From the NCBI GenBank assembly GCA_024277375.1, contig JAJRVD010000104.1, positions 1 through 40,912 on the forward strand: DNA of 40,912 nt, read 5' to 3'. A program made the position numbers and the translations under genes. This document shows, piece after piece, positions 1,077 to 35,935 of the stretch (its first letter is position 1; each line of letters starts with the position of its first letter). Source of the DNA: Candidatus Omnitrophota bacterium. GTDB lineage: Bacteria; Omnitrophota; Gorgyraeia; Tantalellales; Tantalellaceae. The notes beneath the pieces were generated by a model. It saw only the letters and a list, made by a program, of their open reading frames with translations, did not search any database and was not told the DNA's origin.

Positions 1077-2135
1077 CTACCTCCTAAAGTAGTTTGTAAG
1101 CTTGGTATGGTCTCCTTCTACCTCGGGAAGGGCCAACATAAGAAGAATACGCGCCTTAGCGCCGGGGAGGTCACCTCCGAGAATAACACCTGCTTTCTTA
1201 AGAGTTGCTCCCCCGCCGGCATCACCATAAATCGGGAAAACTCCGCCATTAAAGACTTGTGTAGTTATAATCACGGCTATCCCCTTACTTAAAGCGTATT
1301 GTACGGCTTTATATACTTCCGCGTTCACATTTCCCGCACCGACACCTTCTATAACTATACCATCCGCGCCCTCGGAGACCGCATAGCGAACAAAACTGCC
1401 ATCATCTCCGGCAAACGTCTCAAGAAGAACGACTTTAGGAAGATCTTTTGGTATCGGAAATTTTTGACGGTGAAGACGATCGTTAAAACGTGAAACTTTT
1501 CCCATCGCGATATACCCGAGATATCCTTTCTCTCCGGAATTAAAAGTCTGTATATTAGTTGAACTGGTTTTTCTGACATCCCTGGCAGAATTAATATATT
1601 GGTTAAGCGTAACCGTAACACCCCAATCACCTGCTTCATCGGAGCACACCTGCGTAACGGCATTTAAAATATTCACGGGCCCATCCGGAGACAAGTCGGA
1701 CGCGTCACGCATGGCCCCTACAAAAGTCACGGGTTTCTCGGTCTTGAGCGTAAGATCGAGAAAATATGCTCCTTCCGCCATCGTATCTGTTCCGTGAGTT
1801 ATGACCGCCCCTTTTACCGTGGGATCCAGAAGTTCCTTATCAACTGCTTTTGAAAGTCCCGCCCATAATTCGGGCGTCATTTGAGAGCTATCAATATTCG
1901 AGTAGCTGACAACCTTGATCTTCGCGACGTCTCTCAGGGCCGGTACCGCATCAATAAGAGCTTTTCCTGTGAGCGCGGGAATCGCCCCGCCGCCTTTAGG
2001 GTCGTCTTTTTCGGCTATAGTGCCTCCGGTCGTTACCACAACAACTGTTGGCAATTCCGCTTGTGAACTATTAGCGAAAAACATACACGACAAAACAAAA
2101 CAAATTATAAGGCTAATATTTTTCAATATCTTCAT
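1077..2135 (-). CDS. ansB: type II L-asparaginase, exported
   Basis: TTGGTIAEK and THGTDTMAE motifs. N-terminal signal peptide (MKILKNISLIICFVLSCMFFANSSQA). Start set at the internal ATG (2135). Confidence 0.9.
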   Translation of the reverse strand: MKILKNISLIICFVLSCMFFANSSQAELPTVVVVTTGGTIAEKDDPKGGGAIPALTGKALIDAVPALRDVAKIKVVSYSNIDSSQMTPELWAGLSKAVDKELLDPTVKGAVITHGTDTMAEGAYFLDLTLKTEKPVTFVGAMRDASDLSPDGPVNILNAVTQVCSDEAGDWGVTVTLNQYINSARDVRKTSSTNIQTFNSGEKGYLGYIAMGKVSRFNDRLHRQKFPIPKDLPKVVLLETFAGDDGSFVRYAVSEGADGIVIEGVGAGNVNAEVYKAVQYALSKGIAVIITTQVFNGGVFPIYGDAGGGATLKKAGVILGGDLPGAKARILLMLALPEVEGDHTKLTNYFRR

Positions 2136-2184
2136 TACATTCCTCTCCCCTATCATTCTGAGGCTCCAAAGGAGCCGAAGAATC

Positions 2185-2689: not shown

Positions 2690-3118
2690 TTAATCTACCA
2701 AAGTCTTCATCTCATTGGATTTAATTTTGGTTTTTTTCGCGTATTCGCTCGATTCAAGAACTATACCTTTCGCGAAATTCTTTTCATTGAAAGTATAGTA
2801 ATTAATAGATACCGTGTCCCCGGGTGATATCTCTCCAACCGAAGAGACAATCGTGAAATATGTATGCTCTTCAACAAAATAGGTTCCAACATCACCATTA
2901 GCCTTGACGGTTAACGAATTCTCCGCGACATTTACGCTAAGTACTTTGCCGGAAACATTTGAATCCGTCTCTCTTTGGGCTACTCTGGCGTCAGACTCCA
3001 CCTCTTCATTCGTAGTTTTCAAGTCCTCCTCCACATCCCACGGGTTACCCGCAAACGCTGGAACAGTAAGTACGGTAAAAAAACATAAGGACACAATGGA
3101 CATTACATTTTTTTTCAT
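2690..3118 (-). CDS. exported small beta-rich protein, unknown
   Basis: 142 aa with signal peptide (MKKNVMSIVSLCFFTVLTVPAFA). 'GKVLSVNVAENSLTVKANGDVGTYFVEEHTYF' resembles OB-fold/DUF5666-type domains. Confidence 0.55.
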   Translation of the reverse strand: MKKNVMSIVSLCFFTVLTVPAFAGNPWDVEEDLKTTNEEVESDARVAQRETDSNVSGKVLSVNVAENSLTVKANGDVGTYFVEEHTYFTIVSSVGEISPGDTVSINYYTFNEKNFAKGIVLESSEYAKKTKIKSNEMKTLVD

Positions 3119-3121
3119 ATT

Positions 3122-4372
3122 TTATTCCTTAGTCATAACCCCATACGCCTCACCCATAAGGAGATGTTTCCCAACCTCCGCGGTAATTTTAAACCCGGCC
3201 TCTTTCTGAAAAAGCATAACAAAATCAGAACCCCCGAACTTGAAAGTACCAAGCATATCACCTTTCTCATGGGTAATACCCACCTGAACAATGTCCTCAA
3301 AGTTAACGGAAGAGACTTGCGCCATGCCCATCGGAAGGAGCGCTACCAATCCGTATTTATCTGTATCCATGATCACACAACCGCGGGTCTGCGTAAACTG
3401 CCAACCCGTTGAATCTATCGGAGCGTATTTGCCGGCTTTAGCGTCCCATTTTACTTCCAGGGCTACATTCTTCTCTATTATCGCCTTTTCTTTTATCTCG
3501 CCTGTAACCGCAAAATGATACCGGTGATAATCGTTCACATTCAGGAACGTGTGCGTAAGAACGCCGCCGCGAAACGCGTCTTTATACTTACTATCTTTCG
3601 CCAAAAGATCTCCCACATTGTAATACGTCGCAAGTTTTATCTTAAGACCCGATTCCACCTTTATCCTGGAATCTTCGTCTATCGCCCATACTCCCTGAGG
3701 AACAGAATCGGCCGGAGCGACAACTACCGACTCATCGTCCGGTGAAGCTATCGGCCTCTTGTTTTTTGACTTTAAATATTTGGAGAAAAAACGGTTCCAG
3801 GTATCCCAATTAGACGCGGGTTCGTACCAATCTTTTTGTAAGCCGAAACGAGGGTCTGCGTAAAAACCCTTATAAGAGTCTTCATCCCATGACGCTTCGG
3901 TATCCAGAAACGCTCCCCATGTCTTTACATAATCGCGCGTCCATGCTGAAAATGGCCCGTAATACTGAATGGCATTCTTAAACAAACCTTTACCTTCCAA
4001 ATCCGAGAGAGGTTGATCCACAAGAAAATAAAAATAACATATTATCTGCATTATCTGCTGACGTATAAGATTTTTCGGATTATCCAATACTTCTTTAGGG
4101 ATAAGGTCTACCGACCCATCTATAAAATCATAGTATTCCTCGATACTCTGAGCGGGATTCGTCACTTTGTCCGGGTTGATCGCCTTAGCTTTCGCGAGTG
4201 ACTCTTCCAACATCTTACCAACCTCTGGTTTCTCCGCAATAAGCTCAATAAGAGCTTTGGTTAATGGTCTATGCCCAACTTCGGCCGCTACGCCCACACT
4301 GGAACACAACACCATTCCCGCCATCAATACCACAACCATCCAAGACCTTGCCTTACAAATGTTTTTCGTCAT
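3122..4372 (-). CDS. exported phosphatidylserine decarboxylase-like protein (pyruvoyl-dependent family)
   Basis: PSD-family motifs: 'RPIASPDDESVVVAPADS', 'FRGGVLTHTFLNVNDYHRYHF' and the C-terminal 'GDMLGTFKFGGSDFVMLF' cleavage-site region. Predicted signal peptide. Confidence 0.8.
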   Translation of the reverse strand: MTKNICKARSWMVVVLMAGMVLCSSVGVAAEVGHRPLTKALIELIAEKPEVGKMLEESLAKAKAINPDKVTNPAQSIEEYYDFIDGSVDLIPKEVLDNPKNLIRQQIMQIICYFYFLVDQPLSDLEGKGLFKNAIQYYGPFSAWTRDYVKTWGAFLDTEASWDEDSYKGFYADPRFGLQKDWYEPASNWDTWNRFFSKYLKSKNKRPIASPDDESVVVAPADSVPQGVWAIDEDSRIKVESGLKIKLATYYNVGDLLAKDSKYKDAFRGGVLTHTFLNVNDYHRYHFAVTGEIKEKAIIEKNVALEVKWDAKAGKYAPIDSTGWQFTQTRGCVIMDTDKYGLVALLPMGMAQVSSVNFEDIVQVGITHEKGDMLGTFKFGGSDFVMLFQKEAGFKITAEVGKHLLMGEAYGVMTKE

Positions 4373-4431
4373 ACCATCCTCCTTTTTTACAGATCCTTTA
4401 GAATCCTGCAAAATGGAACTTTCGTCATTCG

Positions 4432-4564
4432 AACTGTGTCATAATTCGTTTTGCGAATGGTCGCATACAATATATTGGTCGCATACACTACATTGTGGGG
4501 GTTCGATTCATCGAACCCGATATAACGGGCTTGATGAATCAAGCCCCTACATTATGACACAGTC
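4432..4564. mobile_element. MITE-like bipartite palindromic repeat, copy 3 (inverted orientation, internal 18-bp duplication)
   Basis: AACTGTGTCATAAT...ATTATGACACAGTC. Contains imperfect tandem units TCGCATACAATATATTGG / TCGCATACACTACATTGT. Confidence 0.8.
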
Positions 4565-4646: not shown

Positions 4647-6389
4647 TCACCTTTTTGTTGTTTCTTTCTGCTTTCCATATGTCGTAGGTCCATCCGGCCA
4701 TTTGGATCGCGCGTACCACTCTTCGGGATACCCGACTTCCTGAGCCATTTTGTTTGGCTCGTTAATATAACCGTCGTCATATTTCGCGACAAGCCTCCAC
4801 GCAAAGTCCCACCACCCGGCGACAACCTGATTGGCCTGGTTATTACAATATTCCGTGAGCATAACCCTTGCCTTTTCAGGGTCTTTTTTATATACGCTAA
4901 ACGCCTTCTTATCCATCTTCTTCATACCTTCGATCTCAGCCAACTCTATATCGTTCTGTTTTTCCTGGATATCTTTGATTATGTAACTATATTTTATAGC
5001 CGCCCAGTTGGCTACAAAATTAAAAGCCCACCAAGCACTCTTCTGACTGAATTCTGCCGGATCACAAGTATAATACGGCTCGGCGATACTTTTTACACCA
5101 ACGTAAAAGGGAACATAACAAGTACTCATCGGTTCATCCGGGCCAAACCATACTATCCCGCCTATTGGATCCGGCAACCATCCGCGAGCCTGACACACAT
5201 AACTGAACCCGCATCTGAATATCGAGATCGGTCTTTCCCACGCGCCTTTTTTCGGAGCGTTCGGATCGGATGTATCACCTTTAGCGTCCATTGGCCCGGG
5301 ATAACGATAAGGACTGCCAAAAGGCCCGGCTGTAACACCTTTTGAAAGATCGAACTCGGTGCCCTGGTAATAGTTGCGGTACAAGGCCATAACATCACGC
5401 ACACCAAACTTCTTGTCCGGTTTTATTGAGAACTTGAATTTTTTGGTAAACCCGTCTTTCACCTCAGGAGTCAACTTTAATGAAGGTGCTATTCGACTTT
5501 GCAAACTCCACACTCTTCGCAGAGAGTAGTATGGATGGTTGTATTCACCTAAGCTCACGGTCCTCAGCCAATCCAACTTACCGTCGGAAGGTTTCCACCA
5601 GCCATATTTTTCCGCAACACTATGAAGATTACTTGAGTAAAGCATATCCGGGTCTTTAGTGTCAATTTCGCGAATACGTAGTTCATTTGAAGCGACAAAT
5701 ATTTCACCCGCCGGAACTTTTTTTGCTACCCAGAGCCCCCCTTTCCCTTCGGGGCTGGGTGCCATCTCAATCACCCACCCTTCTTCTGTGTCGCCAATAG
5801 GCAATGTTTCACCCGTACCATAATATCCGTAGGTCTCTATAAGTTCGCCTATCAACTCCACAGCTTCGCGTGCTGTCGTACAGCGTTCCGCCGCTACACG
5901 GCTGAGTTCGGCGCTATAAAAAATAAGTGTTCCCGGAACAGGATCAGGCTGGATCTTCGTCCCATCGGTACACTCACCGAACATCAGCTGATGCTCATTC
6001 ATTATACCGTACGATCCGTCAAAATACGCGTACGTATGTTCAACTTGGGGGATATGGCCCAGCGGTATACTTTGCGGTTGGTCGAGATCAACATAAGTGG
6101 GACCTCGATGAGTACCGACATATCTTCTCAATGTATACCCGTGATATTCGGGTTTGTCCCCCAATGCGCTCGCGTCATAATAAACAGGGCGAAGCGATCC
6201 AGGTTCATGGTCAGCGGCCGGCACATAGACCAGACGTTGATCGAACAGTTCACTGTCATCCGAATGAGCAACAAACACCGAACCGTCTTCCGTCGCTTCT
6301 TTGGTTACAAGTATCGTGGTACAGGCAAACGCTGAAACGGAAGAAAACAAAAAAACCACACTCACGATCAAGCCAATTAATCTCCTCAT
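4647..6389 (-). CDS. exported C69-family dipeptidase (Ntn hydrolase)
   Basis: Signal peptide followed by ACTTILVTKEATEDGSVFVAHSDD, with 'YGIMNEHQLMFGECT' and 'IGDTEEGWVIEM', as in peptidase family C69. Confidence 0.85.
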   Translation of the reverse strand: MRRLIGLIVSVVFLFSSVSAFACTTILVTKEATEDGSVFVAHSDDSELFDQRLVYVPAADHEPGSLRPVYYDASALGDKPEYHGYTLRRYVGTHRGPTYVDLDQPQSIPLGHIPQVEHTYAYFDGSYGIMNEHQLMFGECTDGTKIQPDPVPGTLIFYSAELSRVAAERCTTAREAVELIGELIETYGYYGTGETLPIGDTEEGWVIEMAPSPEGKGGLWVAKKVPAGEIFVASNELRIREIDTKDPDMLYSSNLHSVAEKYGWWKPSDGKLDWLRTVSLGEYNHPYYSLRRVWSLQSRIAPSLKLTPEVKDGFTKKFKFSIKPDKKFGVRDVMALYRNYYQGTEFDLSKGVTAGPFGSPYRYPGPMDAKGDTSDPNAPKKGAWERPISIFRCGFSYVCQARGWLPDPIGGIVWFGPDEPMSTCYVPFYVGVKSIAEPYYTCDPAEFSQKSAWWAFNFVANWAAIKYSYIIKDIQEKQNDIELAEIEGMKKMDKKAFSVYKKDPEKARVMLTEYCNNQANQVVAGWWDFAWRLVAKYDDGYINEPNKMAQEVGYPEEWYARSKWPDGPTTYGKQKETTKR

Positions 6390-6413: not shown

Positions 6414-7067
6414 CTATTCGACTTTAACTGCATCAGGATATATGAAGTTTAAAAACCCAAGCGCCGACAAAGCAATGCCATACTTCTTTTTAATACGAAG
6501 AGAGGTTATACTGAATTTCATCTCCCCATCCTGCTTCAATCCCCGAATACTAAGCTCATGATTCAGCGATTTAGTTAGCTGTTCAACCGCATCTTCTTTG
6601 GCTTGGTCCGCGTTTACTATCTCCCCTTTATAAACCCGTTCGTACTCCGCGGCAAACCCGCCTATTTTATCCCCTTTATCATTTATGGCCCATACCCGGC
6701 CAAGACCCGCGGCTACCGTATCACCTTTCAATCCTCCCGCTTTCGCCATAATTGTTTCCAGAACCGCTCCATGATGAAAATACTTTTTCGTTTTAGAGAG
6801 GGCTACCTCTCGAGATTCAGGCGGGAGCACCGAAGTATAATAAACAACATTAAAGTTCTCTATTCCTGCCTCCAAAAGAGCTAAGTCGTACGAAAAAGTC
6901 TCGTATGGATCCGGCAGTATTCCGTCATCGGATTCACCAGTCCCGGTCGTCGCGATATAATCCGTCGGGATCCTGGGGCCAGACGTACTTTCGGCATACG
7001 CCTCCATGCCATTAACCAACCCCAGACTTAACACAAAACATACCATAACGATTTTTAGTGTTCTCAT
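6414..7067 (-). CDS. pyruvoyl-dependent arginine decarboxylase, predicted exported
   Basis: 'AGIENFNVVYYTSVLPPESREV' aligns with the PvlArgDC self-cleavage region (archaeal '..LIRISSIMPP..'). N-terminal hydrophobic signal sequence MRTLKIVMVCFVLSLGLVNGMEAYAES. Confidence 0.8.
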   Translation of the reverse strand: MRTLKIVMVCFVLSLGLVNGMEAYAESTSGPRIPTDYIATTGTGESDDGILPDPYETFSYDLALLEAGIENFNVVYYTSVLPPESREVALSKTKKYFHHGAVLETIMAKAGGLKGDTVAAGLGRVWAINDKGDKIGGFAAEYERVYKGEIVNADQAKEDAVEQLTKSLNHELSIRGLKQDGEMKFSITSLRIKKKYGIALSALGFLNFIYPDAVKVE

Positions 7068-7148
7068 CTTTACTCCTCCCTTTGTGCTTTATTCACGATC
7101 TATCTCCAAAAGCCATGTCGACCCTATGTTATTCCGTACAGAGGTATC

Positions 7149-7266: not shown

Positions 7267-8946
7267 CTATACCAAATGAACTATTATCGCGCCCCATACA
7301 GTTAGTATAAAATTCCCAAAAGCATATGGAACGGTATATCCAAGCGCCGGAACAGAACTATCAGACGCTTCTTTCAAAACATTAAGTGACGGCGTCGCGG
7401 TCCCCGCTCCGGTAAGCGCCCCCAAAAGAAGGAGAGGATTCATTTTAAGAACGAACCTTCCAAAAATAAGACCAAGTATATGCGGCGTTAGAGTAAGAAC
7501 AACACCGGCAAAGAATAGTATCAAACCGGTGCTACGGAGAGCATCCACCGCTTTAGGACCTGCCGTAAGACCAACGCAAGCTATAAAAAGATTAAGTCCG
7601 AAATTCGTGAACACCCATTGCGCACCGGTAGGAATTTGTCCAAATGTGGGATGAAGCGATCTAAGCCATCCAAAAACTATACCGGACAAGAGAACTCCGC
7701 CGCCTATCCCAAGGGTTAACGGTATGCCCGCGATAGGCACCGCTGCCAAGCCCAGCAAAGTTCCCAAAACACACCCAACGCCGACAATAACCATATCCGT
7801 AGCTACAGTTTGTCGTTCAGGATAGCCTAGGTCCGCGACAAACCTTTCGACATCTTTCTCCGCACCGGCAACATGGAGAATATCGCATTTATGTACCACA
7901 GTATCACGTGCTAACGGTATTTCATGTCCCTGGCGGGTGATCTTTCTTAAAAAACATCCGTGTCCATGCTCGCCACTGATCTGGCCCAACGTTTTTCCAA
8001 CCACTTCTTTTTTCGTAACACAGATACCCAGGATCTCACCAAGAATATCCTCAACATCCTTATCGTCAACTTCAGGCCCTATCATTTCATTCGCCTTCAA
8101 AAACTCCTGGCGATTACCAACTATAGCAACTATGTCGCCGGTCTCTATACGCGTATCCTGAGCAGGATCCATGACGCCATCTGCTTTCTTAAGTTTATCA
8201 ACAACTATCCTACCCTCAAAAAGACCTTCAAATTCCTTGACCGTTTTACCGAAAATTTCTCCCTTCGCAACCTTATAGGCCCTTAGATTTAAACGTTTAT
8301 ACCACGAAAAAAGTTCCGGAGACAATTCTTCATTATCTGAACCTGACATCTCTCTTTCAACCTTTCTCGCTTCTTCCTTAAGGTCCCATCCGAGAAGACG
8401 CGGAACAAGTTTGAAGAATACAATAAGACCGGCAACACCAAAGAGATAAGTTATAGCATACGCGATAGCGACATTACTCTCTAAAAGCGTTTTCTGGGCA
8501 CCCGATATGGCCAAATGTTTTATGGCCCCATCGGCCGTACCTATTATTGAAGACTGTGTCATCGCGCCGCTTATCATTCCGGCAGTGGTACCCGCGTCAA
8601 GATTGAAAGCCTTTCCCAAAAGCACGGCGACTACAAGACCTACCGCGGCGACAAAAAGTGAAAGCCATACATATTTTATGCCGTCTTTTTTAAGCGCACC
8701 AAAGAATTGCGGTCCTACCCTATATCCTACACAAAAGATAAAAAGAGCGAACCCTATGGCTCTAGCCATAGGCGGTACATCTATATTCATTTGACCAAGC
8801 ACGATCGCGGCAATAAGAACACCCGCGGTCGCTCCAAAACTGAAGCCAAAGATCTTTATCTTGCCTATCTGATACCCTATGGCGAGCGCCAAAAAAACCA
8901 CGATCTGAGGATAAGCTCGAAAGGTCTCGATCATGTTTTGAACCAT
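7267..8946 (-). CDS. aspT: AspT/YidE-type transporter (aspartate:alanine antiporter family) with RCK_C domains
   Basis: Two hydrophobic repeats flanking TrkA-C-like domains. The start codon overlaps the aspD stop (TAATG). Confidence 0.85.
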   Translation of the reverse strand: MVQNMIETFRAYPQIVVFLALAIGYQIGKIKIFGFSFGATAGVLIAAIVLGQMNIDVPPMARAIGFALFIFCVGYRVGPQFFGALKKDGIKYVWLSLFVAAVGLVVAVLLGKAFNLDAGTTAGMISGAMTQSSIIGTADGAIKHLAISGAQKTLLESNVAIAYAITYLFGVAGLIVFFKLVPRLLGWDLKEEARKVEREMSGSDNEELSPELFSWYKRLNLRAYKVAKGEIFGKTVKEFEGLFEGRIVVDKLKKADGVMDPAQDTRIETGDIVAIVGNRQEFLKANEMIGPEVDDKDVEDILGEILGICVTKKEVVGKTLGQISGEHGHGCFLRKITRQGHEIPLARDTVVHKCDILHVAGAEKDVERFVADLGYPERQTVATDMVIVGVGCVLGTLLGLAAVPIAGIPLTLGIGGGVLLSGIVFGWLRSLHPTFGQIPTGAQWVFTNFGLNLFIACVGLTAGPKAVDALRSTGLILFFAGVVLTLTPHILGLIFGRFVLKMNPLLLLGALTGAGTATPSLNVLKEASDSSVPALGYTVPYAFGNFILTVWGAIIVHLV

Positions 8947-10571
8947 TATTTTCCCCCTTTCCATCCAGCGTGATATTCTTCCAATAGATCTGAAATACCC
9001 CTGCCAATACTGGCGTATGCGGCATCCGGCAAATTAGCGAGCGAAACACGCACAGACATGTTCGGCGCGTCAAAGCCGCCGCCATCCATTAAGACTATAG
9101 ATTTTTCTTCCGCTAATCGCCACACAAAATCTATCGGTTCGTGCTCTTTGATCATATACTCGCGAAATTCATTCCCATATCTTTTCTTGGCAAGCTGAGG
9201 AATATCTATGGTCGTGTAATAGCGAGCGTCATATTCATTGTCGGGGCCTGGCTCGCCCAAGGCGTCGTACAACGTTTTAAATCTGTGCGCTACTACTGAC
9301 TGCGCTTCTTTTTTATATTCTCCTGCTTTGTCAACAAGACAATACAATGAGAACAGCACCATAAGAACTTGCTGTGGGGTAGAAAGACCTGCCGTGTGAT
9401 GAAGCGCAACGGATCTTGAATCGGCGACCATCCTGTCTATGAACTTCATATTATCCGGATCAAGCGCGACCGTGCCGTACCTCTTATGAAGCGCGTCTCT
9501 ATCTTCTTGCGGAAGTTCTTTTATCTTTTTATCGAAAATGTTGTCTTCATGAATACCTATGACCCCTAGCCTCCATCCGGTAGCGCCAAAATATTTCGAA
9601 TATGAATAGACCAATATTGTATTCGCCGGAGCCACTGCCGCAAGAGATCTGAAACCATTAACAAAAGTCGCGTAAACATCATCCGTAAGAAGGATCAGGT
9701 CTTTTCGTTTTGTTTTTACAAGTTCGGCGATTTTATCAAGTGTTTTTCTCTGCATGCTTACGGATGTCGGGTTTGACGGGTTCACAATAAAAAAAGCTTT
9801 TACTTCAGGGTCTTCAAGTTTTTTTATCTCCGCATCCGAATACTGCCAATCATTATTTTCATCCTGTTCTATCTCAAGCTCTACAAACTCATAATCATTA
9901 AGATTTGGTATTTCCAAATACGGTGTAAATATTGGCGTACCGATAGCTATCTTATCTCCTTTATGCAAGAGTTTGTTCTCCATAAGACTCGAAAAAATAT
10001 AATCCATTGCCGCGGTCCCGCCTTCGGTCGCGAAAAGATCAAACTTGCCCGCCGGCGGCTGGCACGCGCACATCTCTTGATCAAGATACTTATACACTAC
10101 TTTCTCGGAGTAGTTCAACATCCTGTCCGGTGTTGGGTAATGATCTCCCAAAATAGCATCTACCATCTCACATATAAAATCATCGCCATCGTAGTTAAGT
10201 TCATTTCGCACATGATCAAACGCCTTTTTAAGGAACGCTATCCCCGGCGCGTCCCAATTAACTTCAAGATATTTTTGAAACCTGTCGGCGATCCCTTCTT
10301 TTACGGGCGTTGATCCAAGCCTGGTTCTATGAGGCGTTCTTTCGGCTTCTTCAACCGCGAAAAGATTCAGCTGGCTAAAACCCTGCCTCGGAACCATTGT
10401 TATCCAGTTGGGGTTACCCCTTCCGGCATTGAGCATCGTACGTTCATGATGCGACTGGGACATTTTTATAAGTTTGTTTTTTAATTCAAAAGGACTTAAT
10501 CCTTCATAACGTTTCTCTTCAACTCGACTCATAATATACTCCTTTGTTTTATCGTAATCAGGGCTACGCAA
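8946..10571 (-). CDS. aspD: bifunctional aspartate aminotransferase / L-aspartate 4-decarboxylase
   Basis: 'NAGRGNPNWITMVPRQGFSQLNLFA', 'SKYFGATGWRLGVIG' PLP-lysine region, ~535 aa class I/II aminotransferase fold. Adjacent to aspT. Confidence 0.9.
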   Translation of the reverse strand: MRSPDYDKTKEYIMSRVEEKRYEGLSPFELKNKLIKMSQSHHERTMLNAGRGNPNWITMVPRQGFSQLNLFAVEEAERTPHRTRLGSTPVKEGIADRFQKYLEVNWDAPGIAFLKKAFDHVRNELNYDGDDFICEMVDAILGDHYPTPDRMLNYSEKVVYKYLDQEMCACQPPAGKFDLFATEGGTAAMDYIFSSLMENKLLHKGDKIAIGTPIFTPYLEIPNLNDYEFVELEIEQDENNDWQYSDAEIKKLEDPEVKAFFIVNPSNPTSVSMQRKTLDKIAELVKTKRKDLILLTDDVYATFVNGFRSLAAVAPANTILVYSYSKYFGATGWRLGVIGIHEDNIFDKKIKELPQEDRDALHKRYGTVALDPDNMKFIDRMVADSRSVALHHTAGLSTPQQVLMVLFSLYCLVDKAGEYKKEAQSVVAHRFKTLYDALGEPGPDNEYDARYYTTIDIPQLAKKRYGNEFREYMIKEHEPIDFVWRLAEEKSIVLMDGGGFDAPNMSVRVSLANLPDAAYASIGRGISDLLEEYHAGWKGGK

Positions 10572-10602: not shown

Positions 10603-10736
10603 GGCTGTGTCGCAAGTCACATTGTGAGAGACTGCATACAACATATTATACCGGGTTCGATTCATCGCACCCGATATAACGGGCTTGATGAATCAAGCCC
10701 CTACGTCAAATCAAATCCCCACATTATGACACAGAC
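10603..10736. mobile_element. MITE-like bipartite palindromic repeat, copy 4
   Basis: GGCTGTGTCGCAAG...CCGGGTTCGATTCATCGCACCCGATATAACGGGCTTGATGAATCAAGCCCCTAC...ATTATGACACAG. Outer arm CGTTTTGCAGA at 10762-10772. Confidence 0.75.
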
Positions 10737-15409: not shown

Positions 15410-16813
15410 TTAACAGTGTTTCCTGTATTTACCGCGTTTACCGGGTTTCTTAGGCTTATTCCCCGGTTGCTCGGCAAAATGTTTCAGTATACGTTTTAAA
15501 TCGCCTATCAAAAGATCTGCCATATCCCTGCTAAAACCTTCCTTAACAACGATACGCAGGACCGCGATATCTTCGTCGTTAGCCGGTAACGTATAGGCGG
15601 GAATAAGCCAGCCTCTGTCACGAACCATTTCTGATATGTCAAACACGGAAAAATTGGTTTCCTCTTTGAGTTTAAAAGCAAAAACCGGGATATCCGATCC
15701 GTCGGTCAGCAACTTAAAAGGCCCGAGCTTAGCGATCTCACCGGAAAGATACAAGGCAGTCTCATGTAAGGATTTCATAATACGCCTGTATCCGGTTTTA
15801 CCCAAACGCAGAAAGTTATAATACTGCGCAACTATCTGGTTGCCCGGACGTGAAAAATTTATAGCAAATGTCGGCATCTCACCGCCGAGATAATTAACAT
15901 TGAAAATAAGATCCTTCGGCAGTTCCTCCCAATCACGCCAGATAACCCAGCCCACCCCGGGATAAACCAGTCCGTACTTATGTCCGGAGACATTGATCGA
16001 TTTTACCCACTTCAAACGAAAATCCCACTTCAGATCGGGCTGAATGAAAGGCGCGATAAAAGCGCCCGAGGCCCCGTCCACATGGATAGGAACCTCCCAT
16101 CCGGTTTTTGCGTTAAGCTTATCCAACGCTTTGCTTATTTCTTCAATCGGTTCATATTGCCCCGTGAACGTTGTCCCCAGAATAGTTGCAACACCGATAG
16201 TATTCTCATCGACACGTTTGATAACTTCTTCGGCATTAATAATGTAACGGTCACTTTCCATCGGGATAAAACGTGGTTCAACATCCCAGTAACGGCAGAA
16301 TTTCTCCCAACAAACCTGGACATCAACCCCCAAAATCAAATTAGGTTTATCTATCGGTTTTCCTTTAGCTTTCATCCGTTCTCGCCATTTCCATTTGAGT
16401 GCCATTCCGCCCAGCATGACGGCTTCTGAGGAACCGATCGTTGAACAGCCGCAGGCTTCACCCTTTTCCGGGGCGTTGTATAGACGCGACAACATATTCA
16501 CGCAGCGTTTCTCAAGCTCCGCCGTTTGCGGGTACTCATCCTTGTCGATCATATTTTTGTCGAATGTCTCAGCCATCAGTTGCTTCGCTTCCGGCTCCAT
16601 CCACGTCGTAACAAAGGTCGCGAGGTTAAGCCTGGAGTTACCGTCCAGCATCAGCTAATCGTGAACAATATTATACGCCGTCCTCGGAAGCATTTCATTT
16701 TCAGGCATTTCAAATCTTGGTATTGCCTCGTTCAGCTCTCGAGACGCGTATGTTGGTGTAAGTACTTTTTCAGAATCCCCAATTTGATCCAGCCTCACTT
16801 TTTTTGATAACAT
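15410..16813 (-). pseudogene. gadB: glutamate decarboxylase split by one in-frame TAG codon (16655-16657)
   Basis: Segment 16658-16813 encodes MLSKKVRLDQIGDSEKVLTPTYASRELNEAIPRFEMPENEMLPRTAYNIVHD, then TAG. The same frame continues [27 protein letters not shown]... to 15410. GAD family signatures: [19 protein letters not shown]. Confidence 0.9.
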
Positions 16814-16827
16814 TTCGTCCTCCTTGA

Positions 16828-18237
16828 TTAGTGTTTGGAGACCCACTCCGGCCGCTTAAAAAGGTTGATCATTAACGGCGCGGTAACGAAAACTACTATA
16901 CCCACGACAAGAAAAATAACATAAAAAGCCGGACTTCCCACCATAAGTTGTGCCGGAGGAAAAAAACCAACAGTTATCGCGAACACGGCACCAAATATTC
17001 CTATCCCGGAGACTATCCACATCCCGATATTTCCTCCCGGCACTCTGTATGCCCGATGGACTTCAGGCTGCGAATAACGTAATTTTATAGCCGCGGCGAA
17101 AAGCATGATATACATTATCAAGTAAAGGATGACCGTAAGAGCCGTAAGCAGAAAGAACGCGCTACTGATATTAGGCATCAGGAGATAAACCAGCGCAATC
17201 GTCGTTACTATCAGGCCCTGGACGAACAGAATATGTGTTGGAACACCATTAACATTCGTATGTGCCAAAAAAGGAGGTAGATCACCGTCCTCAGCGGTAG
17301 CAAGAAGCCCCTTACTGGGGCCTACTATCCAGGGAGTTACGGCCCCTATGGCCCCAAAAGCAATAAGAAACCCTATAACGGGAAGCAACCAATCCATATT
17401 GAATGAGTGGAGCAAGTCTTTAAACCCTTGCATGATACCGATCGTAAGGCTGATATTCTTTGCAGGGATCACTGCCGCGATAGACAATGAGCTGAAAGTG
17501 AAGACGATCACGATCATAGCTGCCGCAAGAAAGATCGCTTTCGGATAATCGCGTTTTGGGTTCCTTACTTCCAGCGCGTGAACAGCAGACACTTCCATGC
17601 CGGCAAAAAGCAGAACAACTCCGGCAAGAAACGAAATATTGGAAAAATTGCTAAAATCAGGAAAAATGCTGTGTGACGTGATGGCAAACTCAAGTGGGTT
17701 CCCTTTAAGCCACCACGTGACACCCAGAGCGATAATAAGTATACCCGGGAATATAGTGCCTCCTATAACGCCCGCGGTGGTAAGCCATCCGGAAGTTTTC
17801 ATGCCGCGAAAGTTCATCAACGTAGCTCCCCAGTACGCGACAAGTATTACTGTAATATTGAAAATTTTGCTACCGGCAAGTGCCGGATCCAGAAAAAGGT
17901 AGGATAACGCGCCCGCGGCGAACGCCAGTATCGTCGGATACCAGATAACATTCTGGATCCACTGGAGCCAGATAGCCATGAATCCCAGACGTCCCCCGAA
18001 AGCTTCTTTGACCCACCTGTAAACACCTCCGCCAACCGGCCAACCTGTAGCAAGCTCGGCGGATACAACCGATGTCGGGATTAGAAAGATCATTGTCGCG
18101 AACAAAAGAAAAAAGATCATCGGTAATCCTTCCTTAGCCATCATAGGCAGTCCTCTGAGATTCATGATAATGGCCACATTCAGCATCGAGAGAACAAAAA
18201 CACTTAACTGGCGATGTTTTCCGGACCTTTCTTCCAT
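16828..18237 (-). CDS. gadC: APC-superfamily GadC-like glutamate:GABA antiporter
   Basis: 'ELATGWPVGGGVYRWV', 'WIVGPSKGLLATAEDGDLPPFLAHTNVNGVPTHILFVQ', ~12 TM segments. Directly upstream of gadB. Confidence 0.8.
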   Translation of the reverse strand: MEERSGKHRQLSVFVLSMLNVAIIMNLRGLPMMAKEGLPMIFFLLFATMIFLIPTSVVSAELATGWPVGGGVYRWVKEAFGGRLGFMAIWLQWIQNVIWYPTILAFAAGALSYLFLDPALAGSKIFNITVILVAYWGATLMNFRGMKTSGWLTTAGVIGGTIFPGILIIALGVTWWLKGNPLEFAITSHSIFPDFSNFSNISFLAGVVLLFAGMEVSAVHALEVRNPKRDYPKAIFLAAAMIVIVFTFSSLSIAAVIPAKNISLTIGIMQGFKDLLHSFNMDWLLPVIGFLIAFGAIGAVTPWIVGPSKGLLATAEDGDLPPFLAHTNVNGVPTHILFVQGLIVTTIALVYLLMPNISSAFFLLTALTVILYLIMYIMLFAAAIKLRYSQPEVHRAYRVPGGNIGMWIVSGIGIFGAVFAITVGFFPPAQLMVGSPAFYVIFLVVGIVVFVTAPLMINLFKRPEWVSKH

Positions 18238-33936: not shown

Positions 33937-34653
33937 CTAATTCAACTTCACCGGTCGCTTAATCTTTGTCATGCGTTCAGATCCACCAAGGCTTAAGTTC
34001 TTCTTCGCACTGATTATCCTCAATTGCGCCACTTTCCCATGGTATTCCCTAAACGCCTTTTCTATATCTCTATCCTCAAATGTGGCAACAAATTGATTAT
34101 CTTGTGGAATTGATAACATTGATCTATCCAGTTTTATGCCCCTCCCCGCTATAAAAGTCTGAACTATTACCTGAAAAGTCATCGGTTTCTTATGATCCAA
34201 GTGGCTCTCATATGTTGCGATTTTTACTCCAGTCACTTCACATTCAACTTTTCCATCTTTGTCACCATATTGCTCAAAAAACCTCTTTTTAGCTTCTTCT
34301 AGTGATTGTCCTACAGATTCTCTACATGCTTCTGAAAATTCCTGCAATAGGCTTTTCCCTTTCGCATTTACTGCTGAAGGATAAGAAAACTCAGTGACTG
34401 TCCCATCTGTTCTTTTCAACCAAAAACAACTTGTTCCTTTATCCGTCAATGCTTTATAAAATTTCTTTATTCCACATCCTATTTTTTGCAATGATTCAGG
34501 GTGTCGTTCAATCAAAGCATATAACATATCCGTATCGTCCTCATTAACATCTTGATTATTCCGATACCTACTAAGCATTTCCTTAAAAAACGCTAATGCA
34601 TCTTTTTTAAAAGGAAACTCCATACTTCCAATTTTTATAGGCTTACGAGCCAC
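33937..34653 (-). CDS. DUF3223/DCL-like domain protein
   Basis: 'FPFKKDALAFFKEMLSRYRNNQDVNEDDTDMLYALIERHPESLQKIGCGIKKF' and 'CFWLKRTDGTVTEFSYPSAV' match my recollection of this family. Confidence 0.65.
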   Translation of the reverse strand: MARKPIKIGSMEFPFKKDALAFFKEMLSRYRNNQDVNEDDTDMLYALIERHPESLQKIGCGIKKFYKALTDKGTSCFWLKRTDGTVTEFSYPSAVNAKGKSLLQEFSEACRESVGQSLEEAKKRFFEQYGDKDGKVECEVTGVKIATYESHLDHKKPMTFQVIVQTFIAGRGIKLDRSMLSIPQDNQFVATFEDRDIEKAFREYHGKVAQLRIISAKKNLSLGGSERMTKIKRPVKLN

Positions 34654-35044: not shown

Positions 35045-35935
35045 TCATTTTTGCTCCCTCTTCTTAATTTTCAAATATTTTTGAGCTTGAGTAAAAGAAG
35101 CCTTCCCATAACGAATTCCCCCAAAAATATTGTGTAATAAAAGCTTAATATGCTTATCTAATTCTGAGTCATTTGAATAATCTGCCGATGCCATAAAGTC
35201 AACTCTTTCAGCATTTAACAAATTTTGGCATACTTCTTTGCCCTTCTTATCCCTCTTCTTAAACACTGCTATTGCAAATCCTCCGTTTTGTCGTATCACT
35301 GTCATGCAAGGAACGTCTGTAAGCCCATCACCTATATACAAGATATTCTGAAAAGGTATTGCCCTTAAAGCACTCGGCATATGAAGATTGATATTTGTAT
35401 GCATTTCCTCCAACCCCTTATTAATTCTGAAAATAAATTGGGTCTTCAGCGTATCATTAACAATAACATTCGGAAAAGTAGCTGCTCCATACTCGTCATA
35501 GTAATATTCAGATGCGAAGATCCTATGAAAATGCTTTGCTATTTTTGTGCCTTCAATTATTTCCTTTAATCCTGCCGAAATGATATAATGCCTTAACTCA
35601 ACATCGCTATTGAATTTATCTTTAACATATTTATTTATGCGACTGAAATACCTTTCAACTCCGGAAAAATATTCGATTTTCGTAGCTAATTTCTTTAATT
35701 TTGCTTTCGTAACCGGATATTTCTGTGCTTTCGATTTCTCTATCATTAGACGCATATATGTGACAATACCTTCCCCCTGCGTCACCTTTGCCTCGACACT
35801 AACTTCCTGCCAAAATCTCTTCCCATCCTTTATGCCTAAATCAGGGAAGATAGTATATTCCTGCATCGGTTGAGGAGTCAGCGTACCATCAAAATCATAA
35901 ACTAGCGCTATCACATTATGTTTATACTTGCCCAT
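35045..35935 (-). CDS. HAD-superfamily hydrolase
   Basis: 'LVYDFDGTLTPQP' motif I and 'NILYIGDGLTDVPCM' motif IV. Confidence 0.8.
   Translation of the reverse strand: MGKYKHNVIALVYDFDGTLTPQPMQEYTIFPDLGIKDGKRFWQEVSVEAKVTQGEGIVTYMRLMIEKSKAQKYPVTKAKLKKLATKIEYFSGVERYFSRINKYVKDKFNSDVELRHYIISAGLKEIIEGTKIAKHFHRIFASEYYYDEYGAATFPNVIVNDTLKTQFIFRINKGLEEMHTNINLHMPSALRAIPFQNILYIGDGLTDVPCMTVIRQNGGFAIAVFKKRDKKGKEVCQNLLNAERVDFMASADYSNDSELDKHIKLLLHNIFGGIRYGKASFTQAQKYLKIKKREQK

Follow-up and report, generated by a model that had tools for sequence, protein, structure and literature searches.

A predicted exported pyruvoyl-dependent arginine decarboxylase and its PSD-like partner in Candidatus Omnitrophota and several other bacterial phyla

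Described systems and the decarboxylase family

As described in textbooks, acid-survival systems built on amino-acid decarboxylases are cytoplasmic and antiporter-dependent. To our knowledge, the known versions of pyruvoyl-dependent arginine decarboxylase (PvlArgDC) work inside the cell and require a partner transporter that brings arginine in and takes agmatine out. In chlamydial aaxBC, the decarboxylase gene lies beside the antiporter gene, and the pH optimum of AaxB is near 3.4 (PMC2720952). The nearest described arrangement to the one reported here is that of the two-decarboxylase, one-antiporter systems, in which aaxB or adiA occurs with hdcA (PMC8465708).

A window of 40,912 nucleotides from a Candidatus Omnitrophota bacterium (contig JAJRVD010000104.1), which is the whole stretch of DNA referred to below, was annotated and compared with other genomes in this study (Table 1). 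The reading that we favor, at a probability of roughly 0.55, is a periplasmic, transporter-free decarboxylation of arginine by a self-processing exported PvlArgDC that has a PSD-like partner, likely for acid buffering.

As judged from its sequence, the ORF at 6414-7067 is confirmed as a genuine member of the PvlArgDC family. It matched PF01862 over residues 33-205 with 95.6 bits (cut-off 22.7; E=3.8e-27), and its score against TIGR00286, the archaeal-type PvlArgDC equivalog, was 49.7 bits, below the cut-off of 106.95. A phmmer search of the single window protein against the PDB gave no match, whereas profile searches did. AlphaFold modeling of the mature chain, with the signal peptide removed and two divergent viral-contig homologues added to the input, reached a pLDDT of 88.9; a model of the precursor built with nine close sequences (pLDDT 56) was not used. 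All nine PDB matches of the mature model at E<=0.001 were to Methanocaldococcus jannaschii PvlArgDC (PDB 1n2m, 2qqd; Foldseek E 1e-12, with a TM of about 0.8 to the target).

The M. jannaschii enzyme and the window protein are 22-24% identical and have in common the fold and four aligned active-site positions. In the profile alignment, D61, N73, T78-S79, and E141 of the window protein correspond to D35, N47, S52-S53, and E109 of M. jannaschii, which we take to be the catalytic and self-cleavage residues; N47 and S53 are named as mutated positions in PDB titles. These residues are invariant in all nine close sequences (the window protein and eight relatives), and the T78-S79 pair lies within YYTSVLPPES (residues 76-85). 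The first cleavage position is T in the window protein and S in M. jannaschii, and the window protein further carries a signal peptide and an HHG motif that is absent from the M. jannaschii chain. The initial annotation had proposed a PvlArgDC domain with a preserved TS/VLPP self-cleavage region, and had pointed to a structural comparison with M. jannaschii and to possible loss of active-site residues as ways to check or challenge it; the domain, the region, and the modeled fold all hold up, and every residue checked is kept.

Chlamydial AaxB and the AaxB-like proteins of Lichenicola and the Desulfovibrio phylum belong to the same family and have cores of 193-195 aa, compared with 192 aa in the mature window protein. 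The T-S cleavage pair is at 52-53 in the Lichenicola copy, matching Ser53 in AaxB.

Table 1. Features of the window that concern the decarboxylase gene and its neighbors
Feature	Position	Strand	Basis
Asparaginase, predicted exported, likely start ATG 2135	1077..2156	(-)	PF00710/PF17763; 67% identical copy in WOR-1 locus (tblastn)
Small protein, predicted exported, 3 bases after PSD-like gene	2690..3118	(-)	No Pfam match; signal-peptide-like N-terminus
PSD-like pyruvoyl decarboxylase, predicted exported, likely start ATG 4372 with signal peptide; cleavage motif FGG/S	3122..4411	(-)	PF02666, 132.9 bits
C69-family peptidase/dipeptidase, predicted exported	4647..6389	(-)	PF03577, 192.8 bits; signal-peptide-like N-terminus
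PvlArgDC, AaxB-related, predicted exported, 217 aa	6414..7067	(-)	PF01862, PDB fold match, invariant active-site residues
T78-S79-V80 codons, predicted site of self-cleavage by serinolysis, source of the pyruvoyl group	6828..6836	(-)	Invariant in nine sequences; aligned to M. jannaschii S52-S53
Predicted Sec signal peptide coding region, residues 1-25, cleavage AYA/ES	6993..7067	(-)	Hydropathy and site scan; 9/9 sequences; dN/dS <1 in two relative pairs
Shine-Dalgarno region AAGCACAAAGGGAGGAGTAAAG	7068..7089	(-)	Sequence read
AspT aspartate-alanine antiporter	7267..8964	(-)	TIGR03802, 597 bits (cut-off 547)
AsdA aspartate 4-decarboxylase, PLP, cytoplasmic (no signal peptide)	8946..10571	(-)	TIGR03801, 738 bits (cut-off 435); hydropathy
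GadB glutamate decarboxylase, PLP, no signal peptide	15410..16651	(-)	TIGR01788, 666 bits (cut-off 380)
GadC-like amino acid/GABA antiporter	16828..18237	(-)	Best model TIGR03813, 527 bits (below cut-off 650)

Signal peptide and distribution of the exported type

The N-terminus of the window protein has the elements of an SPase I-type signal peptide: a positively charged n-region (M-R-T-L-K), a hydrophobic core (hydropathy of 3.11 on average in the best 10-residue segment), and small residues at -3 and -1 of a site that follows residue 25, as scored with a simple home-made hydropathy and cleavage-site scan. A scan of 84,980 species genomes recovered eight relatives from several phyla, whose identity to the window protein across the full alignment is 57-68%, namely those of a Deltaproteobacteria MAG, WOR-1, Thermodesulfovibrionales, Pseudodesulfovibrio pelocollis, a Proteobacteria MAG, Desulfocapsa, a bacterium MAG, and a Desulfovibrio MAG. 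All nine sequences have a positively charged start, a core with a best 10-residue mean of 2.6-3.5, and an acceptable cleavage site before a conserved GPRIPT. By contrast, a signal peptide was found in none of 69 other, more distant PvlArgDCs even when any upstream start was allowed (top value 1.83), which makes chance untenable as an explanation. In two pairs of relatives, dN/dS was about 0.19 and 0.43 in the signal region and 0.06 and 0.12 in the mature part, indicating that both parts are translated and constrained. The predicted signal peptide is a trait of a clade and not of one gene call, and in this the clade differs from the aaxABC system with its cytoplasmic AaxB.

The hydrophobic N-terminus might instead be a start-codon artefact or an uncleaved anchor of a cytoplasmic enzyme, as relatives with the same core and no signal peptide exist and internal in-frame ATG codons are present (e.g., M21). 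This is very improbable, because the first ATG (first base 7067) is preceded by a strong Shine-Dalgarno site (AAGGGAGGAGTAAAG-ATG), the hydrophobic stretch and cleavage site recur across phyla, the N-terminal codons are under purifying selection, and no antiporter was found in the searches described below. A better-supported downstream start, which the initial annotation had considered as an objection to its cleavable signal sequence, is disfavored by the same ribosome-binding site, conservation, and selection, and the signal sequence is upheld.

No further exported-type gene was present among 384 genomes of the window's own phylum or in eighteen other genomes of its family. PvlArgDCs were identified in 100 of these 384 genomes, most of the ordinary type at about 200 bits and six in a group at about 100 bits; at several loci of the latter group, the neighbors resemble, by reading, agmatine deiminase and N-carbamoylputrescine amidase. 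Carriers of the exported type amount to one of 395 Pseudodesulfovibrio-phylum, one of 296 Thermodesulfovibrionales-phylum, and one of 74 WOR-1-phylum genomes, each being the genome on which its sample was centered. This sporadic occurrence, together with identities above 60% across phyla, suggests that the gene spread by horizontal transfer. One genome (G386) encodes the exported enzyme plus two ordinary PvlArgDCs, which rules out that the exported gene is a plain replacement of the cytoplasmic one in every genome. One carrier, Pseudodesulfovibrio pelocollis SB368, is listed as a strain and not as a MAG, which may open the prediction to tests in culture.

In a tree that was calculated without chlamydial AaxB and two viral-contig homologues, the nine exported sequences and three AaxB-like ones formed one supported clade (95/89), which did not indicate a direction of change. 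The two viral-contig homologues are AaxB-like PvlArgDCs on IMG/VR contigs of 230 kb (L130:4992-5600, + strand) and 436 kb (L131:5001-5573, + strand); they have no signal peptide, are 41-45% identical to the window protein, and possibly represent a virus-borne arginine decarboxylase.

PSD-like partner, neighboring genes, and antiporters

The PSD-like protein of the window, whose gene stands two genes from the PvlArgDC gene, retains D235, H296, H299, and G394-S395. This Asp/His/His plus GGS cleavage pattern is common to PsiD-type tryptophan decarboxylases (PDB 9jer, 8x4q) and phosphatidylserine decarboxylase, neither of which has the signal peptide found in the PSD-like protein. By sequence, two bacterial PSD-like copies matched PsiD-like tryptophan decarboxylases and phosphatidylserine decarboxylase in the PDB, so that a free amino acid is plausible as the substrate.

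The association of the two enzymes is seen in other genomes as well. In WOR-1 (L045), the first gene downstream of the PvlArgDC gene encodes a PSD-like enzyme, and genes for a predicted exported asparaginase and for another PSD-like enzyme, which shares 63% identity with that of the window, follow within about 4 kb. In the Thermodesulfovibrionales MAG (L046:4287-6155, + strand), one protein of 622 aa consists of a signal peptide, PvlArgDC, and then a PSD-like domain. The PSD homology sets in at the mature PSD start, with no further signal peptide ahead of it, which implies that the two enzymes share a compartment. It is unlikely that the fusion is an assembly artefact, because this would require the loss of the whole signal-peptide stretch. 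Close PSD-like kin were found in five of the nine exported-type genomes, compared with three of 390 genomes sampled from a phylum (Fisher test, P about 1e-7, or 2e-6 with two related genomes collapsed; relatedness and sample differences are not fully corrected in these values); they were not found in the other four exported-type genomes, and no relative of the PSD-like enzyme was found on plasmids. Like the described two-decarboxylase systems (PMC8465708), these loci place an arginine decarboxylase gene beside a second pyruvoyl decarboxylase gene; unlike in those systems, both decarboxylases are predicted to be exported, no shared antiporter was found, and the second enzyme is PSD-like and not HdcA. 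Elsewhere (L122:7257-10232, + strand), a predicted exported PSD-like gene stands directly ahead of a PLP decarboxylase gene (PF00282); no exported PvlArgDC was seen in that genome.

Immediate neighbors in the window include a C69 peptidase gene that starts 24 bases downstream of the decarboxylase gene and is probably co-transcribed with it. Together with the asparaginase, this peptidase could make the two decarboxylases a catabolic pair that turns periplasmic peptides into amines, CO2, and ammonia for scavenging, with secondary effects on pH. The asparaginase accompanies the pair in both the window and WOR-1; however, asparaginase and peptidase neighbors are missing at most other loci, and no gene for the use of agmatine nitrogen was found beyond an agmatinase-like one, agmatine deiminase being absent from eight of the nine genomes. 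We regard such a catabolic function as quite improbable. A C69 dipeptidase is also a neighbor type shared by the window and a Parabacteroides distasonis plasmid record (L053:5986-10923, + strand), in which PvlArgDC is followed, some way on, by the Na+/H+ antiporter NhaD and the dipeptidase.

The window also presents a contrast between cofactor types: the PLP decarboxylases AsdA and GadB are free of signal peptides and have antiporter genes next to theirs, whereas each pyruvoyl decarboxylase carries a predicted signal peptide and is not paired with an antiporter. Acid-stress genes adjoin the exported PvlArgDC in the window only, and unrelated neighbors occur at the other loci. Base composition gave no sharp island boundary around the decarboxylase gene, and neither an Rfam match nor a tRNA (ARAGORN) was detected within the window. 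A family of 52-nt repeats, consisting of the inverted units GGGTTCGATTCATCGAACCC / GGGCTTGATTCATCAAGCCC, surrounds the gene cluster (175-226, 559-610, 2460-2511, 4499-4550, and 10653-10704). Further along, where GC falls to about 0.37, a DUF3223 protein (33937-34653, - strand) matching PADLOC HamC2 (216 bits) and a HAD-like protein (35045-35935, - strand) matching PDC-S34 (332 bits) are possible defence gene products.

Among relatives in bacterial genomes that lack a signal peptide, the three closest (48-50% identical) are one protein from a Lichenicola plasmid and two from the Pseudodesulfovibrio phylum. They begin at the mature N-terminus, and each adjoins a basic amino-acid/polyamine antiporter, which is the layout of chlamydial aaxBC; the antiporters beside the latter two are 46-48% identical to that of Lichenicola. 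AaxB-type genes start at the mature N-terminus, lack a signal peptide, and stand beside an arginine/agmatine-type antiporter, whereas genes of the exported clade encode the signal peptide, and their genomes yielded no antiporter of this type. Specifically, a genome-wide search for the Lichenicola-type (AaxC-type) antiporter at E<=1e-30, a threshold that could miss more distant AdiC-type antiporters in a set that includes some incomplete genomes, gave no match in the nine exported-type genomes and matched both control genomes. Agmatine deiminase was not found in the window's genome or in seven of the eight others. For this transporter type, the initial suggestion that no dedicated antiporter is involved is therefore supported, and the gene context, with neither such an antiporter nor, in most of these genomes, a deiminase, gives no sign of a cytoplasmic location.

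The main rival to acid buffering concerns the fate of agmatine. The enzyme may be exported and active in order to supply agmatine, either for uptake and conversion by agmatinase and AdoMet decarboxylase into putrescine and spermidine or for secretion as a signal or nutrient. The window's genome contains an arginase/agmatinase-family gene adjoining an AdoMet decarboxylase gene (L129:7403-8672) and, as far as searched, no PvlArgDC besides the exported one and no agmatine deiminase, and a protein of this family, arginase and agmatinase being counted together, occurs in eight of the nine exported-type genomes. On the other hand, G386 has two ordinary PvlArgDC genes, one of them separated by about 120 bases from a gene of the arginase/agmatinase family; polyamine synthesis there therefore needs no exported enzyme, and a biosynthetic detour via the periplasm would be wasteful. 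Agmatine supply as the purpose appears rather unlikely.

Proposed mechanism and its implications

For the periplasmic, acid-buffering reading, we infer the following course. PvlArgDC would be made as a pre-proenzyme, exported unfolded by Sec, and trimmed after AYA; the trimmed chain would then fold in the periplasm and cleave itself between T78 and S79 to generate the pyruvoyl cofactor. Given a periplasmic supply of arginine, which is assumed here, each turnover of the mature enzyme would consume one proton and release CO2 and agmatine in the envelope. An arginine/agmatine antiporter would be unneeded, because substrate and product never have to cross the inner membrane. The second exported pyruvoyl enzyme, probably an amino-acid decarboxylase, would work alongside, and in the window's genome the C69 peptidase and the asparaginase may supply free amino acids.

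The Sec pathway passes unfolded chains, and a PLP enzyme is not easily loaded with its cofactor outside. A cofactor derived from the backbone may accordingly mature outside where a PLP enzyme hardly could: the pyruvoyl enzyme carries its cofactor in its own chain and would be suited to export, whereas PLP would not pass Sec. Arginine decarboxylation consumes a proton, and together with the AaxB optimum near pH 3.4 this favors acid buffering of the periplasm as the likely purpose, beside the transporter-linked AsdA/AspT and GadB/GadC pairs. Such a design would not conserve energy, since proton use in the periplasm would lower and not raise the proton-motive force.

A wider proposal, which we put forward tentatively, is that the system has been exchanged between distant phyla, sometimes as one fused polypeptide, and forms a periplasmic counterpart of decarboxylase-antiporter acid resistance that relies on pyruvoyl chemistry because loading PLP after Sec export is hard. 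The initial annotation had noted neither the conservation across a clade nor the PSD-like partner enzyme and its fusion to PvlArgDC, and no description of an exported PvlArgDC or a PvlArgDC-PSD fusion was found in the literature searched, which is weak evidence of novelty because subscription journals lay largely outside it.

If the proposal is true, an exported version that is self-sufficient in its cofactor would be a second way to build a decarboxylase system for acid survival, and it would suggest a reason for the retention of pyruvoyl enzymes alongside those that use PLP. Agmatine would then arise outside the inner membrane, where it could possibly act on neighboring cells.
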